In this document: positions 3-13,370 of the stretch, piece by piece
Position numbering within the stretch: the first letter of the stretch is position 1
Layout: every line of letters starts with the position of its first letter
Virus record (IMG/VR): IMGVR_UViG_3300027631_002338
Coordinates: 1-23,110 of that record
DNA length: 23,110 nucleotides
Origin: a virus
Strand: one strand, 5' to 3'
Notes under the pieces: generated by a model
What the model was told of the DNA's origin: nothing
Seen by the model: only the letters and a program-made list of their open reading frames with translations
Databases searched by the model: none
Program-made: the position numbers and the translations under genes

Positions 3-1361
3 ATAGATGAAACTAAATTTACCGCAAAAGGATATACATATACAAATAATACTTGGAATGTAGTGAATGGAACTGCAAGACAATTAAGTGGATTGGGTAA
101 AGTTGATTTGACAAGTTTATTGGATACTGCAAAGGTTTCAGGTGGTGGAATTAAAGCAACAACATCCGCAGGACAAGTTGAGTGGGCAATAATAAATCCA
201 TATGATGCAACTTTAGGTGGACATCAATTATTAATAGACGAAAGAGAATTTGATGGAACGGGAGTATCTCCAACCAACATAACATCAATTAAATTATTTG
301 ACATATATGATGGACCGGTTACCATTAATAATGTAAGTGGATTTTGGAAAACCTACATAATGCCCGGTAATTTGACAACTAAAATAACTTCATCCACATT
401 TCAAGCTCAATTGAGATTACAAGATGGTTGGTATGGAACAAGAGCCGAATTTACTTTCTCTCCAATATTAGCATACAAACCGCACGGAATAGAATTAACA
501 CATTCAAACCAAACGGAATTAAATACACTATATAGTAGTATTGTTGGTGTATCGGATGTGTATTTGGCATTTAAGGAATTAGCGGACGGTGGACTATTTG
601 GAAATCAAAGTGGAATGGGATTAACCAATGGTATCCAATATTTGAACGCTGATGTTGATGGTAATGGTATATTCAACGAATCAGACACATACAAATTATT
701 ACAACATCTTACAGGTGTTCAACCACTTTCACAATCTACCGCATTAACATATTTGATGAAGTTATATAACAAATCAGATTATGATGCAATAACAACATCA
801 AATTGGGGAACTAAATTTAATTCAACTCGTAACCTACTTCCGTTTACATTGAGTAGTTTAAATAACACATATAACGTAAGTGTAACTTGGTTAGGAGATG
901 TAAATCTATCTCATTCAGCACAACAAAGTGTGAGTAGTGTGGTAAGTAATTCAATTAGAACAATGAGTTTGAGTAGTAATTCCGTTTCAAATGAGATAAA
1001 TGGTTTAATTATGGGTGAATTGGTTGGTAATAAAGTTATAATTACATTATCAATAGACCCGTTACAACAAGAATTGGTTGGTACACAATTCAATTTAAAC
1101 TATGATAACACCTCTTTAAAGTTCGAAAAGGTAGACTTTACAACAAAAGGTAATGCAACTAATTTTGGAACTAATAGGGGTACATTTATAACATTGGGTT
1201 CATTGATAACTGATGGCTCGGCCACATTAGATAAAACCACCGAATATCGAGTAGTATTTACACCAATAGGAAATTTAAAAGACATATTAGGGTTAACATC
1301 AATATCAACAACAGATGCTGTTAATAAAGACGGAAAACAATTAAAGGTGAAATTAAACTAA
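3..1361 (+). CDS. Large surface/virion protein with dockerin-like and cohesin-like regions (5' end outside window)
   Basis: The reading frame is open from the first bases of the window through to the stop, so this is the 3' part of a longer gene; the first apparent start (GTG at 63) is only an internal codon. Two regions can be recognised. Around 555-720 there is a dockerin-like stretch with an EF-hand style calcium loop (DVDGNGIFNESD at 651-686). At about 1008-1358 there is a cohesin-like beta-sandwich, with a core resembling VGTQFNLNYDNTSLKFEKV. In cellulosomes these two folds bind each other; having both in one phage chain suggests a self-assembling or calcium-stabilised fibre or appendage. 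The rest is Asn/Thr/Ser-rich beta-type sequence, as in tail fibres and surface adhesins. The stop overlaps the next start (TAATG), so the gene is translationally coupled to the outer-membrane barrel gene. A virion fibre and a secreted surface protein are both possible. Confidence 0.55.
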   Translation: MDETKFTAKGYTYTNNTWNVVNGTARQLSGLGKVDLTSLLDTAKVSGGGIKATTSAGQVEWAIINPYDATLGGHQLLIDEREFDGTGVSPTNITSIKLFDIYDGPVTINNVSGFWKTYIMPGNLTTKITSSTFQAQLRLQDGWYGTRAEFTFSPILAYKPHGIELTHSNQTELNTLYSSIVGVSDVYLAFKELADGGLFGNQSGMGLTNGIQYLNADVDGNGIFNESDTYKLLQHLTGVQPLSQSTALTYLMKLYNKSDYDAITTSNWGTKFNSTRNLLPFTLSSLNNTYNVSVTWLGDVNLSHSAQQSVSSVVSNSIRTMSLSSNSVSNEINGLIMGELVGNKVIITLSIDPLQQELVGTQFNLNYDNTSLKFEKVDFTTKGNATNFGTNRGTFITLGSLITDGSATLDKTTEYRVVFTPIGNLKDILGLTSISTTDAVNKDGKQLKVKLN

Positions 1362-2254
1362 TGAGAAAATTATTATTAATTCTGTTACTAATTTCGATAA
1401 CATTTGTTACAAACGCACAGATACAAAAGCCCGATACATTACAATTATCACCAAAAGAGTTATTTGGAGAAAGTGATGATTGGAATGATATTGGTATACT
1501 ACAATCATATATTGATTTCTCTAAAGATGTGCTTTCGTCATCAAATCTATCAGTTGGTATAATCGGTAAACAGGTATCTAGCACCTTAAATTTAGGGTAT
1601 AGTAAATCATCTATGAATGGTAAATTTACACATTCATTCTCAACATCAATAAATCCTATATGGAATTACTATGGTGTTGGTTATGGTTTTAGTAAAAATA
1701 CCGATAAGAGAACTACAACATTACAAACATTTTATTCGACAGATTTTGATTTTCAAAAAGATATTACCATTTCATTCATAGATGTATTCAGAACTAAAAA
1801 GTTTGGAACATTTGGATATAGTTTAATAGCATCTAAAACATTTTGGGATACATACGAAGGTGAATGGGGAGGAAAGTATACTGTCGACGAAAACGGTGAT
1901 TTTTTGGATTTGATCTATCCAAAAATACCGGCATCATCGGAAACTATTTATAAAGGAATGTTAATGTACACTTATACAATAAAAACAAAGAGAGTTAATA
2001 TATCTCCACAAATATTTGCTATGAGTGATGTCTACAAAGCATTCAAAGATGGTACTGAATCAGATTTAACATACTTGGATGATTTCAATTTGGATTTATA
2101 TTATGGTACATCACTTGACTGGAAAATAACTAAAAGATTCGTTTTGAATACCAATATTAGATTTAATAAGACTTGGGATAAATTATCAGAATCTGTTGGT
2201 TATAAGAAAGCCAATCCAATAATGTTTATGGTAGGAACAAACTTTCAATTTTAA
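1361..2254 (+). CDS. Secreted outer-membrane beta-barrel protein (paralogue of the barrel at 6305-7705)
   Basis: The 297-residue product begins with a typical signal peptide (MRKLLLILLLISITFVTNAQ, cleavage expected near AQ). The mature part is rich in alternating aromatic and polar residues, as in transmembrane beta-strands, and ends in FQF; a terminal Phe is the classical beta-signal for insertion by the BAM complex. Several blocks match the C-terminal domain of the 6305-7705 gene: LGYSKSS against VGVSKSS, ISPQIFAM against ISPQVFTM, and LDWKITKRF against FDYKITKRF. The two are therefore paralogues. The start codon overlaps the upstream stop by one base, and a lipoprotein gene follows after 3 bases, so the gene sits in a tight operon. 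An outer-membrane barrel is unusual cargo for a phage; surface remodelling, exclusion of other phages or lysis are possible roles. I cannot name a family. Confidence 0.6.
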   Translation: MRKLLLILLLISITFVTNAQIQKPDTLQLSPKELFGESDDWNDIGILQSYIDFSKDVLSSSNLSVGIIGKQVSSTLNLGYSKSSMNGKFTHSFSTSINPIWNYYGVGYGFSKNTDKRTTTLQTFYSTDFDFQKDITISFIDVFRTKKFGTFGYSLIASKTFWDTYEGEWGGKYTVDENGDFLDLIYPKIPASSETIYKGMLMYTYTIKTKRVNISPQIFAMSDVYKAFKDGTESDLTYLDDFNLDLYYGTSLDWKITKRFVLNTNIRFNKTWDKLSESVGYKKANPIMFMVGTNFQF

Positions 2255-2257
2255 GAT

Positions 2258-2599
2258 ATGAAAAGAATATTATATATGTTTCTTGTTTTACTATTAGGGT
2301 GTACTAAACCAGAGTTACCCACACCAACACCGTCTGTTGAGAAAATTTTCAGTGTAAGTGAAAGTAGTGTTACTGATGGTCAATCTATTCATTTTGACTT
2401 ACCATCGGCAGGTACCTATATATTAACGCTTGTTGATGTTGAGAGTGGACAAGTTGTTAGTCGAGAAAGATTTATTGGTGTTGCCGGAGAAAATAACAAA
2501 AAAATATATACCAAATCTATAGTATCGAAGTATTTATATTTGATACTCGCTTCGGCAGATAATGCCCAAATAAGTAAAACAAAACTAACACTAAACTAA
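2258..2599 (+). CDS. Small lipoprotein with a T9SS C-terminal-domain-like fold
   Basis: The 113-residue product starts with a short lipoprotein signal peptide ending in LLLGC, so Cys16 is the likely lipidated residue. The mature part begins TKPELPTPTP, a short Pro-rich spacer. The remaining roughly 80 residues form one beta-sandwich-like domain (GTYILTLVDVESGQVVSRE, later YLYLILASADN, ending in KLTLN). Its strand pattern resembles the type A sorting domain of the Bacteroidota type IX secretion system, and it aligns with the domain of the next gene. A T9SS sorting domain normally sits at the end of a large cargo protein; here it is nearly the whole mature protein behind a lipid anchor. It could be a decoy, a plug or simply an Ig-like domain. 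The gene is spaced 3 bases from the barrel gene and 1 base from the next lipoprotein. Confidence 0.55.
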   Translation: MKRILYMFLVLLLGCTKPELPTPTPSVEKIFSVSESSVTDGQSIHFDLPSAGTYILTLVDVESGQVVSRERFIGVAGENNKKIYTKSIVSKYLYLILASADNAQISKTKLTLN

Positions 2600-2600
2600 A

Positions 2601-2975
2601 ATGAAAAAAAGATTAATATTTGGATTATTAATATTTGGCTTAATTGGTTGCACTAAAGACGATCTTTTTATCAACCAAGAGATTAACCAAATTAAACCAG
2701 AGTTACAAATAAAGAACTCGGTTGGTCTTAAGCTAGAGACGGCGTTTGTAACCGGAGAGGTTGCTATGAACGTAAAAAGTGAAGTTGGGCAATCGGTAAC
2801 TATAAAGATTTTTGATATTTCCAATAGAGTGGTATCAAAAGAGACCGTAACTGTTAAATCTGGTGATAATATTTTAAAGGTATATACATCAACTTTACCA
2901 TCATCAGCATATAGAATTGGCTTATATGACTCTAAGGGTAATCAATTAGGAATTACAGATTTTAATAAATTATAA
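2601..2975 (+). CDS. Small, probably surface-exposed lipoprotein with a T9SS C-terminal-domain-like fold
   Basis: The 124-residue product has a strong lipobox (LIGC, Cys17) after a hydrophobic signal peptide. The residues after the cysteine read TKDD, which fits the K-(D/E)2 lipoprotein export signal known from Capnocytophaga to send lipoproteins to the outer face of the outer membrane. The C-terminal ~75 residues (SVTIKIFDISNRVVSKETV, then a G-D-N turn, LPSSAYRIGLYDSKGNQL) closely follow the type A T9SS sorting-domain pattern. They also align with the preceding gene, which makes the pair tandem paralogues. The gene lies 1 base after its neighbour in the same operon. Surface localisation is an inference from the signal. 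Function is unknown; blocking of host surface machinery or receptor masking are options. Confidence 0.55.
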   Translation: MKKRLIFGLLIFGLIGCTKDDLFINQEINQIKPELQIKNSVGLKLETAFVTGEVAMNVKSEVGQSVTIKIFDISNRVVSKETVTVKSGDNILKVYTSTLPSSAYRIGLYDSKGNQLGITDFNKL

Positions 2976-2990
2976 ATAAAAATACATAAA

Positions 2991-3308
2991 ATGTCAGAAG
3001 AATTAGAACAAAATAACGATGGTACATGGACTGGTTTAAAGAAAACCATTGTCGGTGTAATAACAACAGCAGTAATGGGGTTAGGAACTTGGGGAGTAAC
3101 TCAGTTAACGGGTGGTGGTGATGATCCAGCTCCAGTACAACAAGCAGCCCCTGTAATTAACATTACAAACTCACAAACTCAGCAACAAGCTGCAGGTGGG
3201 GGTGGTAAAACTGTTATCATTAAAGAAAAAGAAACCGTTAAAGAACCTGCAAAACCGGTTAAGAAAAAAGAAGGTGATGAATTTAAAGAAGAAGCACCTA
3301 AGTGGTAA
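2991..3308 (+). CDS. Small single-span membrane protein with charged tail
   Basis: The 105-residue product has a short acidic N-terminus, one hydrophobic segment at about residues 19-40 (IVGVITTAVMGLGTWGV), then a GGGDDPAP linker, a Gln/Asn/Thr-rich stretch and a Lys/Glu-rich C-terminus. There is no signal-peptide cleavage site, so a membrane anchor with a soluble tail is likely. It opens a run of five small membrane-protein genes between the lipoproteins and the CsgG-like gene, as a lysis cassette might be organised. The leader is A-rich (AATACATAAA before ATG), as usual for Bacteroidota. No family recognised. Confidence 0.6.
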   Translation: MSEELEQNNDGTWTGLKKTIVGVITTAVMGLGTWGVTQLTGGGDDPAPVQQAAPVINITNSQTQQQAAGGGGKTVIIKEKETVKEPAKPVKKKEGDEFKEEAPKW

Positions 3309-3309
3309 T

Positions 3310-3489
3310 ATGGAACAGGGATTAAGTTTTATAGCTGTGGTAACGTTGTGTACTCTTGCTATGTTCGTATTTAATTCTCCATTATTATTTTTAATTGCCT
3401 TTTTTAGTGGTTCAACGTATTTGGTAATTAGAGGGAAAAAAATGGGGTGGAGGTTACCTAAAAATATAAGGGATACTCACTCTTGGTAA
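3310..3489 (+). CDS. 59-residue membrane protein with two hydrophobic segments
   Basis: I place the start at the ATG at 3310, one base after the previous stop. A longer in-frame reading from 3196 exists, but its extra part overlaps the previous gene and is a lysine-rich artefact of that gene's Lys/Glu codons. The product has two hydrophobic segments, about residues 4-20 and 24-40, followed by a basic stretch (RGKKMGWRLPK) and ends in HSW. Size and topology fit a small phage membrane protein, holin or antiholin type, but no family can be assigned. It lies within the run of small membrane genes at 2991-4665. Confidence 0.55.
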   Translation: MEQGLSFIAVVTLCTLAMFVFNSPLLFLIAFFSGSTYLVIRGKKMGWRLPKNIRDTHSW

Positions 3490-3512
3490 TAAGAAAAAAA
3501 ATATTAGATAAA

Positions 3513-4127
3513 ATGAAAGAACAACCAAGTGGATTTAAGGATTTATTAAGTAGTATGATGAAACGTAGATGGTTCATCACTGCCATCGTTTTAGGTGGTT
3601 TTATGGTTATCATAATGGGTATATTCGGAGCAATAATAAATAAATCAGCAATTGAGGGTGAATGGAAAGAATTACTTCTATTGTTATTAGGTGCTTTTAT
3701 TGGATCTTATGGTAAAATAATAGACTACTGGTTTAGTGATACTGACAAGGATAAAATGTTAGTACAAAAAATGGACGAAGAAGATGGTACATCATTGAGC
3801 AATACTGCAGATATGCCAAATAATCCGATAGTTCCAACCAACGTATCCCCATTAGTATTAGAGTCAGCGATACATGATGAAACACCTAAAGTAAAAGATA
3901 TGTTTGAACAAGTACCAGCAACACAACCAAGAACTGGTATTGAAGTTGATGAAGATGGTGATGGAATTATGGACGGTATTGACTTCGATGGTGATGGTAA
4001 GATTGATGTATATTTCGCACACAGACAATGTCAACACGTTTGGGGAGATTCAGATGGGGATGGTGACCTAGAATGTTTAGTATGTGGTAAAATAAAAGAT
4101 CCTGAACCTGGCGAGGAAGAAGGATAA
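3513..4127 (+). CDS. Holin-like membrane protein with calcium-loop and zinc-ribbon tail
   Basis: The chosen start is the ATG at 3513 (204 residues), preceded by an A-rich leader; an in-frame TTG at 3483 overlaps the previous stop and is less likely. The N-terminal part has hydrophobic segments at about 21-42 and 53-68 (LLLLLLGAFIGSYGKIIDYW), similar in layout to the 3TM holin of gene transfer agents. The C-terminal tail contains Asp-rich calcium loops (DEDGDGIMDG, DFDGDGKID, DSDGDGD, residues 146-187) interleaved with a possible zinc ribbon (C173, H175, C188, C191). The two metal-site types overlap: the third calcium-type loop sits between the zinc ligand pairs. A holin-like protein with a metal-binding extramembrane domain is unusual. 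The holin role is inferred from topology and context only. Confidence 0.5.
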   Translation: MKEQPSGFKDLLSSMMKRRWFITAIVLGGFMVIIMGIFGAIINKSAIEGEWKELLLLLLGAFIGSYGKIIDYWFSDTDKDKMLVQKMDEEDGTSLSNTADMPNNPIVPTNVSPLVLESAIHDETPKVKDMFEQVPATQPRTGIEVDEDGDGIMDGIDFDGDGKIDVYFAHRQCQHVWGDSDGDGDLECLVCGKIKDPEPGEEEG

Positions 4128-4156: not shown

Positions 4157-4420
4157 ATGGCAAGTTTTTTAAAAGAATTATTTAATGACAATAACACAAT
4201 TAACGAAAAATCAGTAGTTGGTTTTGCATCATTTATTTGTATGGTAATTGCGTTAGCAGTAGATCTCATAACTGGTTGGTTAGGTAAACCATTGGTTATT
4301 AATGAATTTATATTTGACGGTTTCTTAGTTATTACTTTGGGATCTTTCGGTATTGCGTCTGTTGACAAATGGATAAACAATAAAAATTCTAAAAATGATA
4401 CTGAAGTTTTAGAGGGATAA
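4157..4420 (+). CDS. 87-residue two-span membrane protein, holin candidate
   Basis: The product has a short hydrophilic N-terminus, hydrophobic segments at about residues 19-41 (VVGFASFICMVIALAVDLIT) and 50-69 (FDGFLVITLGSFGIASV), and a charged C-terminal tail. Two spans and a length below 100 residues are typical of phage holins. The second span, ending in SVDKW, resembles the corresponding part of the preceding gene (GKIIDYW), so the two may be a holin and antiholin pair. The gene is separated from its neighbours by short A-rich gaps and is in the same operon. No named family can be assigned from the sequence. Confidence 0.55.
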   Translation: MASFLKELFNDNNTINEKSVVGFASFICMVIALAVDLITGWLGKPLVINEFIFDGFLVITLGSFGIASVDKWINNKNSKNDTEVLEG

Positions 4421-4437: not shown

Positions 4438-4665
4438 ATGACAAACTTTATAAATAAGGCTAAAAATATGATTTTTAGTTTAACACTTGTTCTTACAAGT
4501 ACTTGGATACTATTTGCACTTTCTTTCCAATTGTACGCAGTGTTTTTACAAGTAAGTGGGCAAGAAGAAGAAATGGCCAGAATATCTAATGAGATATCTT
4601 GGAGAGTTGATGGTACGTTTAAAAATAATCCAGATAATATCTGGTACGAAGGCCCTTCTAAGTAA
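4438..4665 (+). CDS. 75-residue single-span membrane protein
   Basis: One long hydrophobic segment covers about residues 11-38, followed by a hydrophilic tail (QEEEMARISNEISWRVDG, then NPDNIWYEGPSK). There is no cleavage site or lipobox, so this is probably an anchored protein with a short soluble tail. It lies 17 bases after the holin-like gene and 21 bases before the CsgG-like gene. Its role is unknown; a helper in lysis or in envelope targeting would fit the context. Confidence 0.55.
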   Translation: MTNFINKAKNMIFSLTLVLTSTWILFALSFQLYAVFLQVSGQEEEMARISNEISWRVDGTFKNNPDNIWYEGPSK

Positions 4666-4686: not shown

Positions 4687-5418
4687 ATGATACAAAAGAT
4701 AAAAGTATTTGTAATTGGATTGTTATTATGCGCCTTTGCACAAGATATAATCGCGCAAACAATCGGTAAAACAAAAACAGAAGACTACAAGGCTGATTTT
4801 GAAAAAAAGAAAGACATATCAGCTTACTTAGATTATGATGGTCCTCAAATACCAATTCAAATATTAAAAGCCGGTATATCAGATGAAATATATGAAATGT
4901 ATCCTGAATTAAAAGAAAAACGCGTTGGTTTAGGGGTTGCCAATATTTCTATGGAATATCTGGAGAATTTAAATAGATTTATTTTTACTGAGGATAAAAC
5001 AGAAATAAAGAACCGTATGGTTAAACAATTTCAAGCGTCACAATCAGGTATTTCAGAAGATAAATTAGATGGTCGAGGTAAAATTAGATTAGCAAAATAT
5101 TTTGTAACAATTGAGTGTTATGATTATTCAATATCTGAAGACGAAACAATTAATCTAAAAGATGGTATAAAAGATAATATGGTAACTCGTATAGGTCTTC
5201 AGGTTAGATTTACCGATGCGGAAACTGGGGCTATGTTTGGGGCATCTGGATTAGGTGAAGCGACAACAAGAAGAGAATTAACTCTTTTATCTGATGCAAC
5301 AATCGACCCAATTAAATTCAACCAATCAACAATTTCAATTGCAACTAAAAAGGCATTAGACATTGCTTGCGCAAATATTCTTGATAGAATGATTAAAAAG
5401 GGTGTTTTTACAAAATAA
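4687..5418 (+). CDS. CsgG-like secreted protein (candidate outer-membrane pore)
   Basis: The 243-residue product starts with a signal peptide ending near residue 24 (IIAQ). A Cys within the hydrophobic stretch is preceded by Leu, so it is not a good lipobox. The mature part follows the layout of the CsgG/HfaB family: an opening strand (RVGLGVANIS), then NRFIFTEDKTEIKNRMVKQF where CsgG has its vvEReqld helix, LAKYFVTIECYDYS, the characteristic RIGLQVRFTDAETGAMFGAS, a G-x-G-E stretch, and a final helix with KKALDIACANILDRM. In bacteria CsgG forms the outer-membrane export channel for curli; family members also occur in some marine phages, where an export or egress pore has been discussed. It is the last gene of the operon, followed by a strong terminator. 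The absence of a lipid anchor differs from true CsgG. Assignment is by pattern only. Confidence 0.55.
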   Translation: MIQKIKVFVIGLLLCAFAQDIIAQTIGKTKTEDYKADFEKKKDISAYLDYDGPQIPIQILKAGISDEIYEMYPELKEKRVGLGVANISMEYLENLNRFIFTEDKTEIKNRMVKQFQASQSGISEDKLDGRGKIRLAKYFVTIECYDYSISEDETINLKDGIKDNMVTRIGLQVRFTDAETGAMFGASGLGEATTRRELTLLSDATIDPIKFNQSTISIATKKALDIACANILDRMIKKGVFTK

Positions 5419-5489: not shown

Positions 5490-6305
5490 ATGAAAACGTT
5501 ATTAATTACATTATTATTCATTCCAACAATTATGTTAGGACAGGTTTCATCTTGGAGAAGTAATCCTCCGCAACCACAAAGAACGGAAACCCCTAGAGTT
5601 CAACCAACAAGCCCACAAAGAAATGATGTGAGTAGATGGAGAACACAAACAGAACCAATTAGACCTGGCCAACCTGTTCCACAACAACCATTGGTTAGAA
5701 GATGGAGAAGTAATGTAGCAAACCCATATGGTTACTATTGGGGAAATTGGGGTTGGTATCAACCGTTTCCTTACATTTGGTATGACGATTTTGGATGGAG
5801 ACAAAGAAGTGTAGTTAGAATATACGAAAACGGTAAAAGAGATACAATTAGAAAAGAAACAGTTTACACATCTTTTGGTATTGGACACACAAATAATAAA
5901 CAAGCATCTTTTTGGGGTGCGGTAGGTGGTAAAAAAAGTTATTTTATTTTAGATTATACAATGTCATATGATATTGATCAAAATCAATATTATCCATACG
6001 GTAGAATTAATGAGGTAGATTTCACACTAAGTAAAAATGATTTTATTAAACAAGGAACTTTATATCTTGGCGGAGGTAAAAGATTTGGTAAGTTAGGTGT
6101 TCATGGTATGATTGGATTTGGTAATGAGAATATTAGATATCAAGGTAGAGACGATCTTGGTGGTATATCATTTCCAAAATCAAATTCAAATTTTACAACA
6201 TTTAAAATTGGTATTATTAGAGACTTCAAATTTTTTACAATAAAATTAGATAGAGATCCAATAAGAAATTATAACCAAATAAGTGTTGGTTTCCATAACA
6301 AGTAA
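5490..6305 (+). CDS. Secreted protein with Trp-Arg repeats and a C-terminal beta domain
   Basis: The 271-residue product has a signal peptide (MKTLLITLLFIPTIMLGQ). The mature N-terminus carries three spaced copies of a W-R motif in a Pro/Gln-rich context: SSWRSNPP at about residue 20, SRWRTQTEP at 49 and RRWRSNVANP at 71, with a fourth, GWRQRS, at 102. Next comes an aromatic segment (GYYWGNWGWYQPFPYIWY), then a domain of about 150 residues with beta-strand alternation (ASFWGAVGGKKSYFILDYTM, TLYLGGGKRFGKLGVHGMIG) that could be a small barrel. It is the first gene after its own promoter and overlaps the next start by one base (TAATG), so it is probably made together with the linker-barrel protein. 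The repeats could bind peptidoglycan, lipopolysaccharide or a partner. No family recognised. Confidence 0.55.
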   Translation: MKTLLITLLFIPTIMLGQVSSWRSNPPQPQRTETPRVQPTSPQRNDVSRWRTQTEPIRPGQPVPQQPLVRRWRSNVANPYGYYWGNWGWYQPFPYIWYDDFGWRQRSVVRIYENGKRDTIRKETVYTSFGIGHTNNKQASFWGAVGGKKSYFILDYTMSYDIDQNQYYPYGRINEVDFTLSKNDFIKQGTLYLGGGKRFGKLGVHGMIGFGNENIRYQGRDDLGGISFPKSNSNFTTFKIGIIRDFKFFTIKLDRDPIRNYNQISVGFHNK

Positions 6306-7705
6306 TGAAAAAAATATTATTTTTTATTTTTATTTTTATTTCGATAAGATCATTTGGTCAAACATATACACAAACATTCATTGATAAATGTAGTGGGGAA
6401 AAAAAGGTTGCCACAACAACAATGATGAATGGTTATGCAACAGTATCATTTTATAATCAAGTAAGGGCATTTTCACCATTAGAAGTTCAATCAGGGGTTG
6501 TACAAGCTTGGTTATTAACAACTAAAGCAACATATGAAGCAATTACATGCCCAGTAATAAACAACCCTATTGTACAACAAGCAGTAACAAATGCTGCGGC
6601 ACAAACGGCAGCAAATGCAGCATCAGCGGCAGCTAGTAGTGCGGCTTCTACGGCCGCCAGTAGTTCAGCAAGTTCTGCAGCAAGTAGTTCTGCAAGTAGT
6701 GCTGCAGCAAGTTCAGCGGCATCAACACCACCACCTGTGACACCACCGCCAGCTAGTAGTGGTTCAACACCACCACCAGCTAGTAGTTCGTCTTCATCAA
6801 GTGGTTCATCATCTTCTAGTTCATCATCCTCATCAGAATCTAAAACAGAAACAAAAACAGAGGCTAAAACAGAATCTAAGTCAGAAAGTAAAAGTGAGTC
6901 AAAATCAGAAAGTAAAAGTGAGGAAAAAAAGGAAGAGTCAAAATCAGAATCTAAGGAAGAAAAGAAAGAAGAATCTAAATCAGAAGAAAAGAAAGAGGAA
7001 GAAAAAAAGGAGGAAAAAAAAGAAGAGAAGAAAAAAGAAAAGGCTGTTGCATCAAACCCTATGTTGTTATCTTCTGATTTGTCCGTTATTGAATCACCAG
7101 ATGGTAGATGGTTACAATCGGCAACAGTTGGAGTATCAAAATCTTCATTAATGGGTGATGAAAGCTATTCTGCCAACGCGGTAATCATGAGTGATCTAAA
7201 AACGTTTATTGTTAGTGGAGGATATACTAAAATGGATTTTTCTAGTGGTAAGTTAAAAGCAATACATTCATATTCGACAGCCTTTGCATATCTAAATGGT
7301 GTATACATGAATTTGATGGGGTATACATACATTAAGCCAACAACAAAATATGGCGTGTTTGGATATAACGTTGGTTTAATAAATTTACTTATTAAGAACT
7401 CTACAGGTGGTTATGATCATAATATGTCATCATCTGTTGTTGGATTTTGGACAAAGCCATATCAATACAATAAAAAATTAAGTATTTCACCACAGGTGTT
7501 TACTATGTTTGCACCATTATCTTGGAATAGTGTTACTGGTGGATCAACAGTAAACAGAAGTGTTGGGTTTTTATTAGGTTCTTCTTTTGATTATAAAATA
7601 ACAAAAAGATTTGGATTTACAATAAACTATAAATTAAGCGGTAATACATCAGCAGGATCACCATTTTTAAGTAACTTTTTAATTGGGTCAAGGATGATTT
7701 TATAA
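6305..7705 (+). CDS. Outer-membrane beta-barrel protein with long low-complexity linker
   Basis: The 466-residue product has four parts. A signal peptide ends at SFGQ (residue 19). A small N-terminal domain of about 75 residues follows, with two cysteines (C29, C82) that could form a disulfide in the periplasm. Residues 97-247 are low complexity: Ala/Ser-rich, then Pro-rich, then poly-Ser, then Lys/Glu/Ser-rich. The C-terminal ~200 residues are a beta-barrel-like domain related to the 1361-2254 gene (SKSS, FGYNVG, ISPQVFTM, DYKITKRFGF). The layout suggests a barrel in the outer membrane with a flexible arm reaching through the periplasm, possibly to peptidoglycan. It is the last gene of its operon, followed by a terminator. 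Function unknown; an envelope-spanning tether is an inference. Confidence 0.6.
   Translation: MKKILFFIFIFISIRSFGQTYTQTFIDKCSGEKKVATTTMMNGYATVSFYNQVRAFSPLEVQSGVVQAWLLTTKATYEAITCPVINNPIVQQAVTNAAAQTAANAASAAASSAASTAASSSASSAASSSASSAAASSAASTPPPVTPPPASSGSTPPPASSSSSSSGSSSSSSSSSSESKTETKTEAKTESKSESKSESKSESKSEEKKEESKSESKEEKKEESKSEEKKEEEKKEEKKEEKKKEKAVASNPMLLSSDLSVIESPDGRWLQSATVGVSKSSLMGDESYSANAVIMSDLKTFIVSGGYTKMDFSSGKLKAIHSYSTAFAYLNGVYMNLMGYTYIKPTTKYGVFGYNVGLINLLIKNSTGGYDHNMSSSVVGFWTKPYQYNKKLSISPQVFTMFAPLSWNSVTGGSTVNRSVGFLLGSSFDYKITKRFGFTINYKLSGNTSAGSPFLSNFLIGSRMIL
6593..7046 (+). repeat. Low-complexity coding repeat (Ala/Ser, Pro, poly-Ser, Lys-Ser-Glu blocks)
   Basis: The DNA consists of imperfect repeats of GCA/AGT/TCA-type codons, then CCACCA blocks, then TCA/TCT runs, then AAA/GAA/TCA triplets. 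It encodes the linker between the N-terminal and barrel domains of the surrounding gene. Such tracts can vary in length by slippage, so the linker length may differ between related phages. Confidence 0.8.
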
Positions 7706-10822: not shown

Positions 10823-12841
10823 TTATATAATCTTCGTTTTTATCAATAATTTTTCTTTAAATGTTATTTTTATGGGTGTATTTTCTTTAATATTACCCTT
10901 TAAAATTTCATCACTGAGAAAATCTTCACAAAGAGATTGAATAATTCTTTTGATTGGTCTGGCTCCATACTGTTCATCTTTGTTTCTTTTAGCAATTTCA
11001 CTCATAACACTCGCATCGAAGGTAATAAAATATTTTTTCTCATTTAAACGATCTATTAAACGATCCATTTCAAGTTTTATAATCTTCTTAATTGCTTCTT
11101 CACCTAATGGATTAAATAAAACTATATCATCAATTCTATTCAAGAACTCAGGATTGAATTGTTGCTTAAGCGATTTCTGTATAATTGTTTTTTTAACTTC
11201 ATATTGTTGATTTTCACTACTACTAGTATTAAACCCAACACCACTACCAAATTCAGATACTTTTTTAGCACCAATATTAGATGTCATAATGATCAATGTA
11301 TTTGTGAAGTTTACTTTCCTACCAAAGGCGTCAGTTAAATGACCTTCGTCCAGTATTTGTAATAATAAATTAAACACATCCTTGTGCGCCTTTTCTATCT
11401 CATCAAATAAAATAACAGAAAACGGATTATTCTTAATTTTTTCTGTTAATTGACCACCTTCTTCATAACCAACATAACCTGGAGGCGACCCAATTAATCT
11501 AGATACCGTGTGTTTTTCCATATACTCACTCATATCAACACGGATAACATTATCTTCTGATCCAAAAATTAATTTAGATAATGTTTTTGCTAGATATGTT
11601 TTACCAACACCGGTAGAACCAAGAAATATAAAAGAACCAATTGGTTTTTTACTATCTTTAATTCCAACTCTGTTTCTTCTAATTGATTTAGATATTGTAC
11701 TAATAGCTTCGTCTTGCCCAATAACCCTTTCTGATAATTTAACTTCTAAATTTATTAAATTAGAAACCTCATTACTATCCATTTTCGAAATTGGAATACC
11801 AACCATGCTCGATACCATATCATAAACATCATCAACACTAACTGGTATCAACGAATCGTTTTGTTTAGCTAACCATTTAGCTTTTTCATCATCTAATTTT
11901 TTGATGACCTTTTTTTCTTCATCTCTTAGTTTTGCAGCTTCTTCATAAACTTGTTTTTTAACAACTTCATGCTTCTTTTCTTTAATTGTTTCTATTTCTT
12001 TTTTTAATTTCTCAATTATTTCAGGAGCCTTTGTTACAACACGTTTTTCTGAACCTAGCTCATCTAAAACATCAATAGCTTTATCTGGAAATTGTTTATC
12101 TGTCATAAACCTTCCTGATAATCTTACTATTGTTTCAACAACCTCATCACCATATGATACTTTATGAAATCCCTCATATGATTTTTTTAAGTTTTTTAAA
12201 ATCTCAACCGTTTCATCTTCAGTTGGTTCTTTTAAAATAATTTTTTGAAATCTTCTTACTAATGCGCCGTCCTTTTCAATGTGTTTTTTAAATTCATCAA
12301 ATGTTGTTGCACCAATACACTGCATTTCACCTCTTGCTAATGCTGGTTTTAAAATATTAGCGGCATCCATTGAGCCAGATGCATTTCCGGCACCAACCAT
12401 TGTGTGTATTTCATCAATAAAAACAATAACATCAGGGTTCTCTTGTAGTTCATGTAAAATTGCTTTAATTCTCTCTTCAAATTGGCCTCGATATTTTGTA
12501 CCCGCGACCAATGAAGTTAAGTCAAGTGATAGTAATCTTTTATCAATTAGATTAGATGGGCAATCTCCCTTAGATATCATTAATGCTAATTTTTCAACTA
12601 ATGCGGATTTACCAACACCAGCATCACCAACAATAATCACATTATTTTTTTTCTTTCTTGAAAGGATTTGCGCAATTCTTTTAACTTCTTTATCCCTACC
12701 AACAACCGGATCAATTTTATCTTCTTCTGCTAACTTAATTAAGTCTCTAGAAAAATTGTCTAAGATTGGTGTGTTTGAATTAACTCTTTTGTTTTTAGGG
12801 TTAGTTCTGGGGTTTTCTTCATAACCAAATTCTACTGCCAT
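10823..12841 (-). CDS. clpC: ClpC-like AAA+ protein unfoldase without N-terminal Clp-N domain
   Basis: The 672-residue product is a two-ring Clp/Hsp100 ATPase. The first AAA+ module has Walker A GDAGVGKS (72-79) and Walker B VIVFIDE (138-144), with pore loop GTKYRGQ. A short UVR-type middle segment (YEEAAKLRDEEKK, about 299-311) points to ClpC rather than ClpB. The second module has Walker A GSTGVGKT (408-415), pore loop GYVG (455-458) and Walker B VILFDE (476-481). GVGFN at 534-538 is at the place of the ClpP-binding loop of ClpC (VGFN in Bacillus). Bacterial ClpC proteins are about 820-850 residues; the missing part is the N-terminal double Clp-N repeat, replaced by a short polar tail. The phage enzyme could therefore dock on host ClpP but ignore host adaptors and tags. 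It is transcribed divergently from a small heat-shock gene. Confidence 0.88.
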   Translation of the reverse strand: MAVEFGYEENPRTNPKNKRVNSNTPILDNFSRDLIKLAEEDKIDPVVGRDKEVKRIAQILSRKKKNNVIIVGDAGVGKSALVEKLALMISKGDCPSNLIDKRLLSLDLTSLVAGTKYRGQFEERIKAILHELQENPDVIVFIDEIHTMVGAGNASGSMDAANILKPALARGEMQCIGATTFDEFKKHIEKDGALVRRFQKIILKEPTEDETVEILKNLKKSYEGFHKVSYGDEVVETIVRLSGRFMTDKQFPDKAIDVLDELGSEKRVVTKAPEIIEKLKKEIETIKEKKHEVVKKQVYEEAAKLRDEEKKVIKKLDDEKAKWLAKQNDSLIPVSVDDVYDMVSSMVGIPISKMDSNEVSNLINLEVKLSERVIGQDEAISTISKSIRRNRVGIKDSKKPIGSFIFLGSTGVGKTYLAKTLSKLIFGSEDNVIRVDMSEYMEKHTVSRLIGSPPGYVGYEEGGQLTEKIKNNPFSVILFDEIEKAHKDVFNLLLQILDEGHLTDAFGRKVNFTNTLIIMTSNIGAKKVSEFGSGVGFNTSSSENQQYEVKKTIIQKSLKQQFNPEFLNRIDDIVLFNPLGEEAIKKIIKLEMDRLIDRLNEKKYFITFDASVMSEIAKRNKDEQYGARPIKRIIQSLCEDFLSDEILKGNIKENTPIKITFKEKLLIKTKII

Positions 12842-12863
12842 ATACTATCTTTTAAGTTTAACA

Positions 12864-12896
12864 CAAACATACGTAAAAAAAGTTAAAAAAACAAAA
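12864..12896 (-). promoter_or_regulatory. Bacteroidota-type promoter for the Clp gene
   Basis: On the minus strand TTTTG (complement of 12892-12896) is followed after 20 bases by TATGTTTG (complement of 12864-12871), an exact fit to the TAnnTTTG -7 box and TTTG -33 box of the Bacteroidota primary sigma factor. The -7 box lies 22 bases before the start codon. This suggests transcription by unmodified host RNA polymerase. Confidence 0.65.
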
Positions 12897-13001: not shown

Positions 13002-13370
13002 ATGATTACATTATTTAAAGATCCGTTCTTTGATGCGTTTGATAAAGTATTAGATGCATCTCGCTACAATGTTAGCCCACAAACTAATATTCACAAAACA
13101 GAAAGTGAATATAAAATCTCAATGTCAATACCTGGTTTAACTAAGGATGACTTAAAGATTACCATAAAAGAAGGTGTTTTAAAAATCTCTTTCGAAAAGG
13201 ATGAGAAGAATGAAAGAACACATTTCATTGGTAATTTTATAAAATCTTATACAATACCTGATGATGTTAAAGAAAAAGACATTGTGGGTAATGTTGAGAA
13301 TGGTGTGTTGGTATTAACACTGCCAATCGATAAAAAGAAGTCAATTGAGAGACTTATTTCTCTTAATTAA
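13002..13370 (+). CDS. Small heat-shock protein (Hsp20/alpha-crystallin family)
   Basis: The 122-residue product has a short N-terminal arm (MITLFKDPFFDAFDKVLD), an alpha-crystallin domain starting at about residue 25 (TNIHKTESEYKISMSIPGL, DDLKITIKEGVLKISFEK) and the family hallmark NGVLVLTLPI near residue 104. The C-terminus is short and its KKKSIERLISLN gives only a weak I-x-I-type motif. Members are ATP-independent holdases that keep unfolding proteins soluble; phage versions are common in T4-like marine phages and may help capsid assembly or host proteostasis. The gene shares its control region with the ClpC-like gene and is a single-gene unit closed by a terminator. Its leader is A-rich without Shine-Dalgarno, as elsewhere in this window. 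Confidence 0.9.
   Translation: MITLFKDPFFDAFDKVLDASRYNVSPQTNIHKTESEYKISMSIPGLTKDDLKITIKEGVLKISFEKDEKNERTHFIGNFIKSYTIPDDVKEKDIVGNVENGVLVLTLPIDKKKSIERLISLN

Follow-up and report, generated by a model that had tools for sequence, protein, structure and literature searches.

The lipoprotein genes described here adjoin cohesin genes that lack a T9SS C-terminal domain (CTD), and in the single gene slot concerned, lipoprotein and fused CTD are mutually exclusive and have been swapped repeatedly. As judged from profile comparisons, the two lipoproteins of the analysed DNA, lipo1 and lipo2, share one Ig-like domain that is remotely related to the T9SS type A CTD. The window, i.e. the whole stretch of DNA that was analysed, is a 23.1-kb virus record containing terminase, portal and RNA ligase/tail-fibre attachment genes and is therefore part of a large tailed phage. 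Its relevant features are listed below.

3-1361 (+): adhesin, 3' part, secreted, without T9SS CTD; only the end of the gene lies inside the window
1361-2254 (+): B, 297-aa outer-membrane barrel-like protein, optional in the operon (present in 45 loci)
2258-2599 (+): lipo1, lipoprotein with CTD-like Ig domain, 113 aa, lipid Cys15 (CTKPEL), called from its lipobox
2300-2302 (+): codon of lipo1 Cys15, predicted lipidation site (invariant Cys)
2601-2975 (+): lipo2, lipoprotein with CTD-like Ig domain, 124 aa, called from conservation and profile homology
2649-2666 (+): lipo2 lipid Cys17 and surface-export signal C-T-K-D-D-L, fitting C-X-K-(D/E)2-X (PMC5080379)
2703-2972 (+): lipo2 CTD-like Ig domain, aa 35-124, a predicted 7-strand sandwich (hhalign to host CTDs 84%)
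2991-3308 (+): gene E, 105-aa membrane protein, constant 3' neighbour
3483-4127 (+): gene G, 214 aa, membrane segments, common in window-type operons
4157-4420 (+): gene H, 87-aa membrane protein, optional
4438-4665 (+): gene I, 75-aa membrane protein, optional
4687-5418 (+): gene J, 243-aa exported protein, no assigned family, module marker
6305-7705 (+): gene L, Ser-rich and barrel-like protein, module member

A ClpA/B-type ATPase gene (10823-12841, minus strand) and an Hsp20 small heat shock gene (13002-13370, plus strand) are also present in the window.

Operon layout and the lipoprotein gene pair

The preceding gene is separated by three bases from the start of lipo1 (ATG at 2258, stop at 2599), which is in turn followed after one base by lipo2 (ATG at 2601, stop at 2975), and the gene order on the 3' side of the lipoproteins is E, G, H, I, J, K, L. 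Relatives of lipo2 were collected from viral contigs (124 found, 80 kept), and the lipo1-lipo2 tandem was located inside the same operon in all 86 loci read. The dN/dS ratios of lipo1 and lipo2 were about 0.1-0.2, with substitutions between the window and its relatives strongly skewed to silent ones; on the basis of these ratios and of the invariable tandem, both were considered to be real genes. The signal peptide is conserved in both proteins, and the lipobox Cys was identified by a strict pattern in 66 of 67 lipo1 and 63 of 65 lipo2 members, the remaining members also having a Cys at this position. After removal of the signal peptides, mature lipo1 and mature lipo2 were found to be homologous (hhalign 97.8%, E 9e-13), confirming the tandem paralogous lipoproteins of the original prediction, for which the coordinates 2258-2975 proved exact. 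No relative of lipo2 and none of barrel B was identified in the phage collection. A lipo2 relative in a Cytophagales MAG was considered as a clue to the host and rejected, as it is a short fragment beside masked sequence and probably an assembly artefact. One phage (L300) carries two adhesin-lipoprotein sets, which flank J and L (6309-6686 and 12524-12865).

The surface-export signal C-X-K-(D/E)2-X was defined in Capnocytophaga canimorsus (PMC5080379), and processed lipo2, which starts C-T-K-D-D-L, matches its optimum exactly; among lipo2 relatives, 26 of 65 carry the strict signal and 53 of 65 fit a relaxed version. The CTKPEL of lipo1 misses the strict signal, sharing with it only two positions, +3 (K) and +5 (acidic). 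As the signal is exact in lipo2 and partial in lipo1, surface exposure is predicted for lipo2 and uncertain for lipo1.

Two secreted adhesins are encoded upstream of the lipoproteins, one of 547 aa with a cohesin and one of 761 aa in which a C-type lectin and a cohesin are combined with an EF-hand/dockerin-like loop, and both genes were present in all 64 loci with enough upstream sequence. The full-length relative of the window adhesin (L001:4479-6764, 761 aa) has a C-terminal cohesin and a Lectin_C match above the cut-off. The window adhesin itself matched cohesin PF00963 at aa 341-399 with an E value of 4.8e-4, below the curated cut-off; cohesin calls in the window clade are under the Pfam cut-off, while that of gp015 of Flavobacterium phage immuto is over it. 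The EF-hand loop was found in 28 of 30 adhesin relatives, and no T9SS match at E<=10 was obtained among the 148 adhesin ORFs of window-type loci. In 34 of the 36 loci without barrel B, lipo1 and the adhesin stop codon share 1 or 4 bases, which suggests that the translation of lipo1 and adhesin is coupled. Since the window-type adhesin carries the EF-hand/dockerin-like loop and the cohesin together, head-to-tail self-assembly into a fibre is conceivable.

Several observations were made on the other genes of the operon. Barrel B is homologous to the C-terminal part of the gene L product (hhalign 96%), in which a long Ser-rich and Glu/Lys/Ser-rich low-complexity stretch is fused to this barrel-like domain. 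Gene J is one of a large family, with 283 relatives in a single scan, of exported phage proteins of 240 aa that are predicted to have long beta strands and a terminal helix; a first reading by eye as CsgG, the curli pore, was abandoned after searches that gave no PF03783 match, an hhalign value of 2% to host CsgG and no PDB profile match. In most window-type loci the first gene of the operon encodes a member of a 190-aa protein family (L001:2257-2832), whose conserved segment DGTFKNxPxNIW resembles gene I (4438-4665).

Relation of the lipoprotein domain to the T9SS type A CTD

A profile of host CTDs was built from 30 CTDs taken from 12 Bacteroidota genomes and used to search 6,789 ORFs from the 86 loci, yielding 78 matches at E<=1, namely 69 lipo2, 8 lipo1 and one true CTD, that of immuto gp015. 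This selectivity bears out the original view that the mature part of each protein is almost only a T9SS-CTD-like domain. In profile-profile alignments with host T9SS CTDs, mature lipo2 scored 84% (hhalign, E 7e-6) and mature lipo1 gave a weak 40% (E 3e-4), reversed and unrelated controls reaching 1% or less; the T9SS link of lipo1 is thus weak alone and clear via lipo2. Reciprocally, a search of eight Bacteroidota genomes with the lipo2 profile led in 6 of 8 cases to the C-terminal T9SS CTD of a protein, the other two being a phage fragment and a signal-peptide match. As the host-CTD profile, profile-profile and reciprocal searches agree, the likeness was considered real but remote.

The TIGR04183 search suggested with the original prediction did not find the domain at curated stringency, as window lipo2 scored 12.5 bits against a cut-off of 23 (and 15.7 against 27 for PF18962) and window lipo1 matched neither model; one relative attains 23 bits with the T9SS model only through summed neighbouring stretches. 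In the alignment, the CTD-like domain is located at the protein C-terminus, as T9SS type A membership requires, and both the YPNP-type start and the G-x-Y motif of CTDs are absent from lipo2. The functional motifs of CTDs include a glycine in the L-beta3-beta4 loop and a C-terminal motif of which the beta-7 lysine is part (PMC11285876). The loop glycine is replaced in lipo2 by Asn75, which is invariant in all 54 lipo2 members, and window lipo1 has a Gly at about this position (VESGQVV). The penultimate residue of lipo2, Lys123, is likewise invariant, its exact equivalence to the beta-7 lysine being unsure. With the T9SS type A domain (TIGR04183/PF18962) lipo1 and lipo2 therefore share the fold class, the C-terminal position, significant profile similarity and, in sister phages, the operon slot, but they are separate lipidated proteins that score under the curated cut-offs and have lost the YPNP start, loop glycine and G-x-Y residues. 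Because of these low scores and missing diagnostic residues, they were classed as CTD-like and not as working sorting signals. More generally, the presence of such a domain in a phage is no proof of T9SS secretion.

AlphaFold2 modelled lipo2, with modest confidence (pLDDT 68), as an Ig-like sandwich of seven strands. Its best whole-domain structure match was the DUF3244 protein 4g5a (Z 9.9, rmsd 2.4, 80 residues), which ties with unrelated Ig domains; the Ig/fn3-like domains of complement C3 and Brr2 score equally well, so the fold search is not discriminating, and the lack of a T9SS CTD structure among the fold matches listed is uninformative either way. PDB profile searches with lipo1 and lipo2 returned repeats and chance matches only. 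At the sequence level, each of the 54 lipo2 members has a DUF3244 match at E<=0.1 (the strongest at 2.9e-5), below the gathering cut-off of 25 bits (19.4 bits; best relative 23.5); sampling of 148 Bacteroidota genomes for DUF3244 at E<=1e-7 yielded none. DUF3244 proteins (PF11589; 4g5a, 3d33) resemble lipo1 and lipo2 in being small Ig-like domain proteins with weak sequence and apparent fold similarity, but lipo1 and lipo2 lie under the gathering score and the solved DUF3244 members are from Bacteroides.

These DUF3244 matches would suit generic Ig-like surface lipoproteins of the DUF3244 kind that share no more than a fold with T9SS domains and act, for example, in superinfection exclusion by masking receptors. 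We regard this as unlikely, although it is the strongest of the competing explanations, as the sequence profile is CTD-specific among the 6,789 ORFs, the reciprocal matches are CTDs, the slot exchange described below is with true CTDs and DUF3244 itself may be a CTD relative. The original prediction was to fall if no T9SS-domain match and a structural match to an unrelated Ig-like family were obtained, and here the outcome was divided: no curated T9SS match was found and the fold matches are mostly generic Ig-like domains and DUF3244, while the relationship to T9SS profiles is specific.

Exchange of fused CTD and lipoproteins in one slot

The module was defined by the cohesin gene, E, J and L. 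Its slot before gene E was surveyed by homology scans with immuto gp015 and three J proteins, which returned 191 loci, 8 of them stopping short of gene E; loci gathered in this way are not independent, and since 19 contigs came up twice in the first two scans, the 145 loci with a fused CTD represent about 126 contigs. In these 145 loci a true T9SS CTD closes the cohesin gene that precedes E, and a small lipoprotein was present in the slot in none of them (0/145). A fused CTD is missing from 38 loci; in 36 of them the slot is taken by one or two small ORFs with a Cys lipobox, a count that becomes 37 when a locus in which the lipoprotein gene overlaps E (L334) is included, and the remaining locus (L234) carries a truncated fused gene. 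The window-type loci contained lipo1 and lipo2 in 86 of 86 cases and a fused CTD in none. Most of the single slot lipoproteins belong to a separate family, type 4, which is unmatched by the lipo1 or lipo2 profiles and resembles CTDs weakly (hhalign 39%; reversed controls 2-3%), with one member (of L343) matching the host-CTD HMM directly.

On the scale of whole contigs, the fused-form phages have one CTD over the cut-off, that of the cohesin protein, and no lipo2 relative. An unfused phage (L298), however, combines a lipo1-type lipoprotein in the slot with a T9SS-tailed 645-aa protein elsewhere, so the exclusion holds for the slot and not for every genome. Mapped on the J tree, the fused and unfused states require a minimum of 3 changes, which indicates that the exchange is recurrent; recombination between J and the genes upstream of it could have raised this number.

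The original prediction had proposed that the domain could occupy or block the T9SS from the membrane side, which agrees neither with the outer-face location predicted from the lipo2 export signal nor with the slot exclusion in the 145 fused-CTD loci. A blocker should be indifferent to whether the neighbouring cohesin protein carries a fused CTD, yet no such locus has a slot lipoprotein, which argues for replacement of the tail and not for inhibition. A version of this idea is a T9SS decoy, in which the CTD-like domain would bind PorV or the PorU/PorZ attachment complex and alter secretion or gliding, for example stopping superinfection through T9SS-dependent receptors. It draws on the remote CTD homology and on P. 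gingivalis PorA (PMC7712824), which arrives at the cell surface without the T9SS translocon and uses its CTD to bind PorV, showing that such binding can take place apart from normal secretion; PorA has a FimH-like N-terminal domain, in contrast to lipo1 and lipo2, and is not called a lipoprotein in that paper. Given the slot exclusion, which is not expected of a blocker, and the loss from lipo2 of the YPNP start, L-beta3-beta4 glycine and G-x-Y motif, a decoy was judged improbable, and somewhat more so than the generic DUF3244-kind explanation; a secondary effect on the T9SS is possible.

A slot shared with a true sorting tail, together with the invariant Lys123 of lipo2 and the place of the beta-7 lysine in the C-terminal CTD motif (PMC11285876), could also point to an export carrier acting in trans, whereby the lipoproteins still use the T9SS and pull the tail-less adhesin through. 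The glycine and start motifs are lost, though, and lipidation suggests a different route, which makes such a carrier quite improbable, below even the decoy. We know of no T9SS carrier of this kind. Finally, the position of small outer-membrane lipoproteins next to small membrane proteins would be shared by spanin-type lysis lipoproteins of the outer membrane, an identity rendered highly implausible by the surface-export signal, the Ig fold, the constant pairing with lectin/cohesin genes and the distance of several kb between the immuto endolysin gene and the module.

Proposed role and known systems

Because the fused tail and the CTD-like lipoprotein recur, mutually exclusive, in one slot beside the cohesin gene, the same role, surface display or retention of the adhesin, is proposed for both. 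With roughly even chances, we read lipo1 and lipo2 as surface lipoproteins that take over in trans the part played in cis by a fused T9SS CTD in related phages, bringing the lectin/cohesin adhesins to the outside of the infected Bacteroidota cell or holding them there. Lipo1 and lipo2 would be lipidated and flipped to the outer leaflet via the LES pathway, where their Ig-like domain would bind the cohesin adhesin; display of the adhesin would fall to the host T9SS where the CTD is fused, and its anchoring to the lipoproteins in the window form. Cohesins normally bind dockerins, which counts against their binding to an Ig domain. The module as a whole probably encodes a lectin-and-cohesin coat on the infected cell, held by the lipoproteins when the cohesin protein is tail-less, from which the phage might gain an altered host surface, for instance through aggregation or through the capture or exclusion of other phages. 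More tentatively, and with the balance somewhat against it, the T9SS sorting domain may have been cut loose from the cohesin cargo repeatedly in Bacteroidota phages, becoming a separate lipid-anchored surface protein that displays the phage's lectin/cohesin fibres in trans on infected cells. If correct, phages of a major aquatic phylum would build their own surface coat on infected cells, and its anchor could be either of two interchangeable parts, a secretion tail of the host or a lipoprotein of the phage.

T9SS sorting domains have been described before in genes of Bacteroidota phages: Cryophage encodes T9SS cargo with the CTD fused to enzymes or to a PA14 protein (PMC7468147), and CTD proteins are reported from a crAss-like cluster (PMC6949934). 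The window module differs from Cryophage in having a cohesin and in the CTD-like domain being detached and lipidated. In the literature collection searched, no paper combined phage, T9SS and cohesin domain. Phage-encoded T9SS cargo is already known; what appears to be new is a CTD-like form that is detached and lipidated, and the exchange between cis and trans.

The idea is directly testable, as both forms occur in large phages and one of them, immuto (host Flavobacterium sp. LMO8), is cultured. Its genes gp013-gp018 (NC_055915) are a relative of the module, with gp016, gp017 and gp018 corresponding to E, J and L; in contrast to the window, gp015, directly before E, comprises a cohesin and a true T9SS CTD (44.8 bits, cut-off 23), and immuto is without lipo1 and lipo2. 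The genuine T9SS sorting domain of gp015 (L086:12691-13422) goes unmentioned in its annotation, which reads just cohesin domain-containing.
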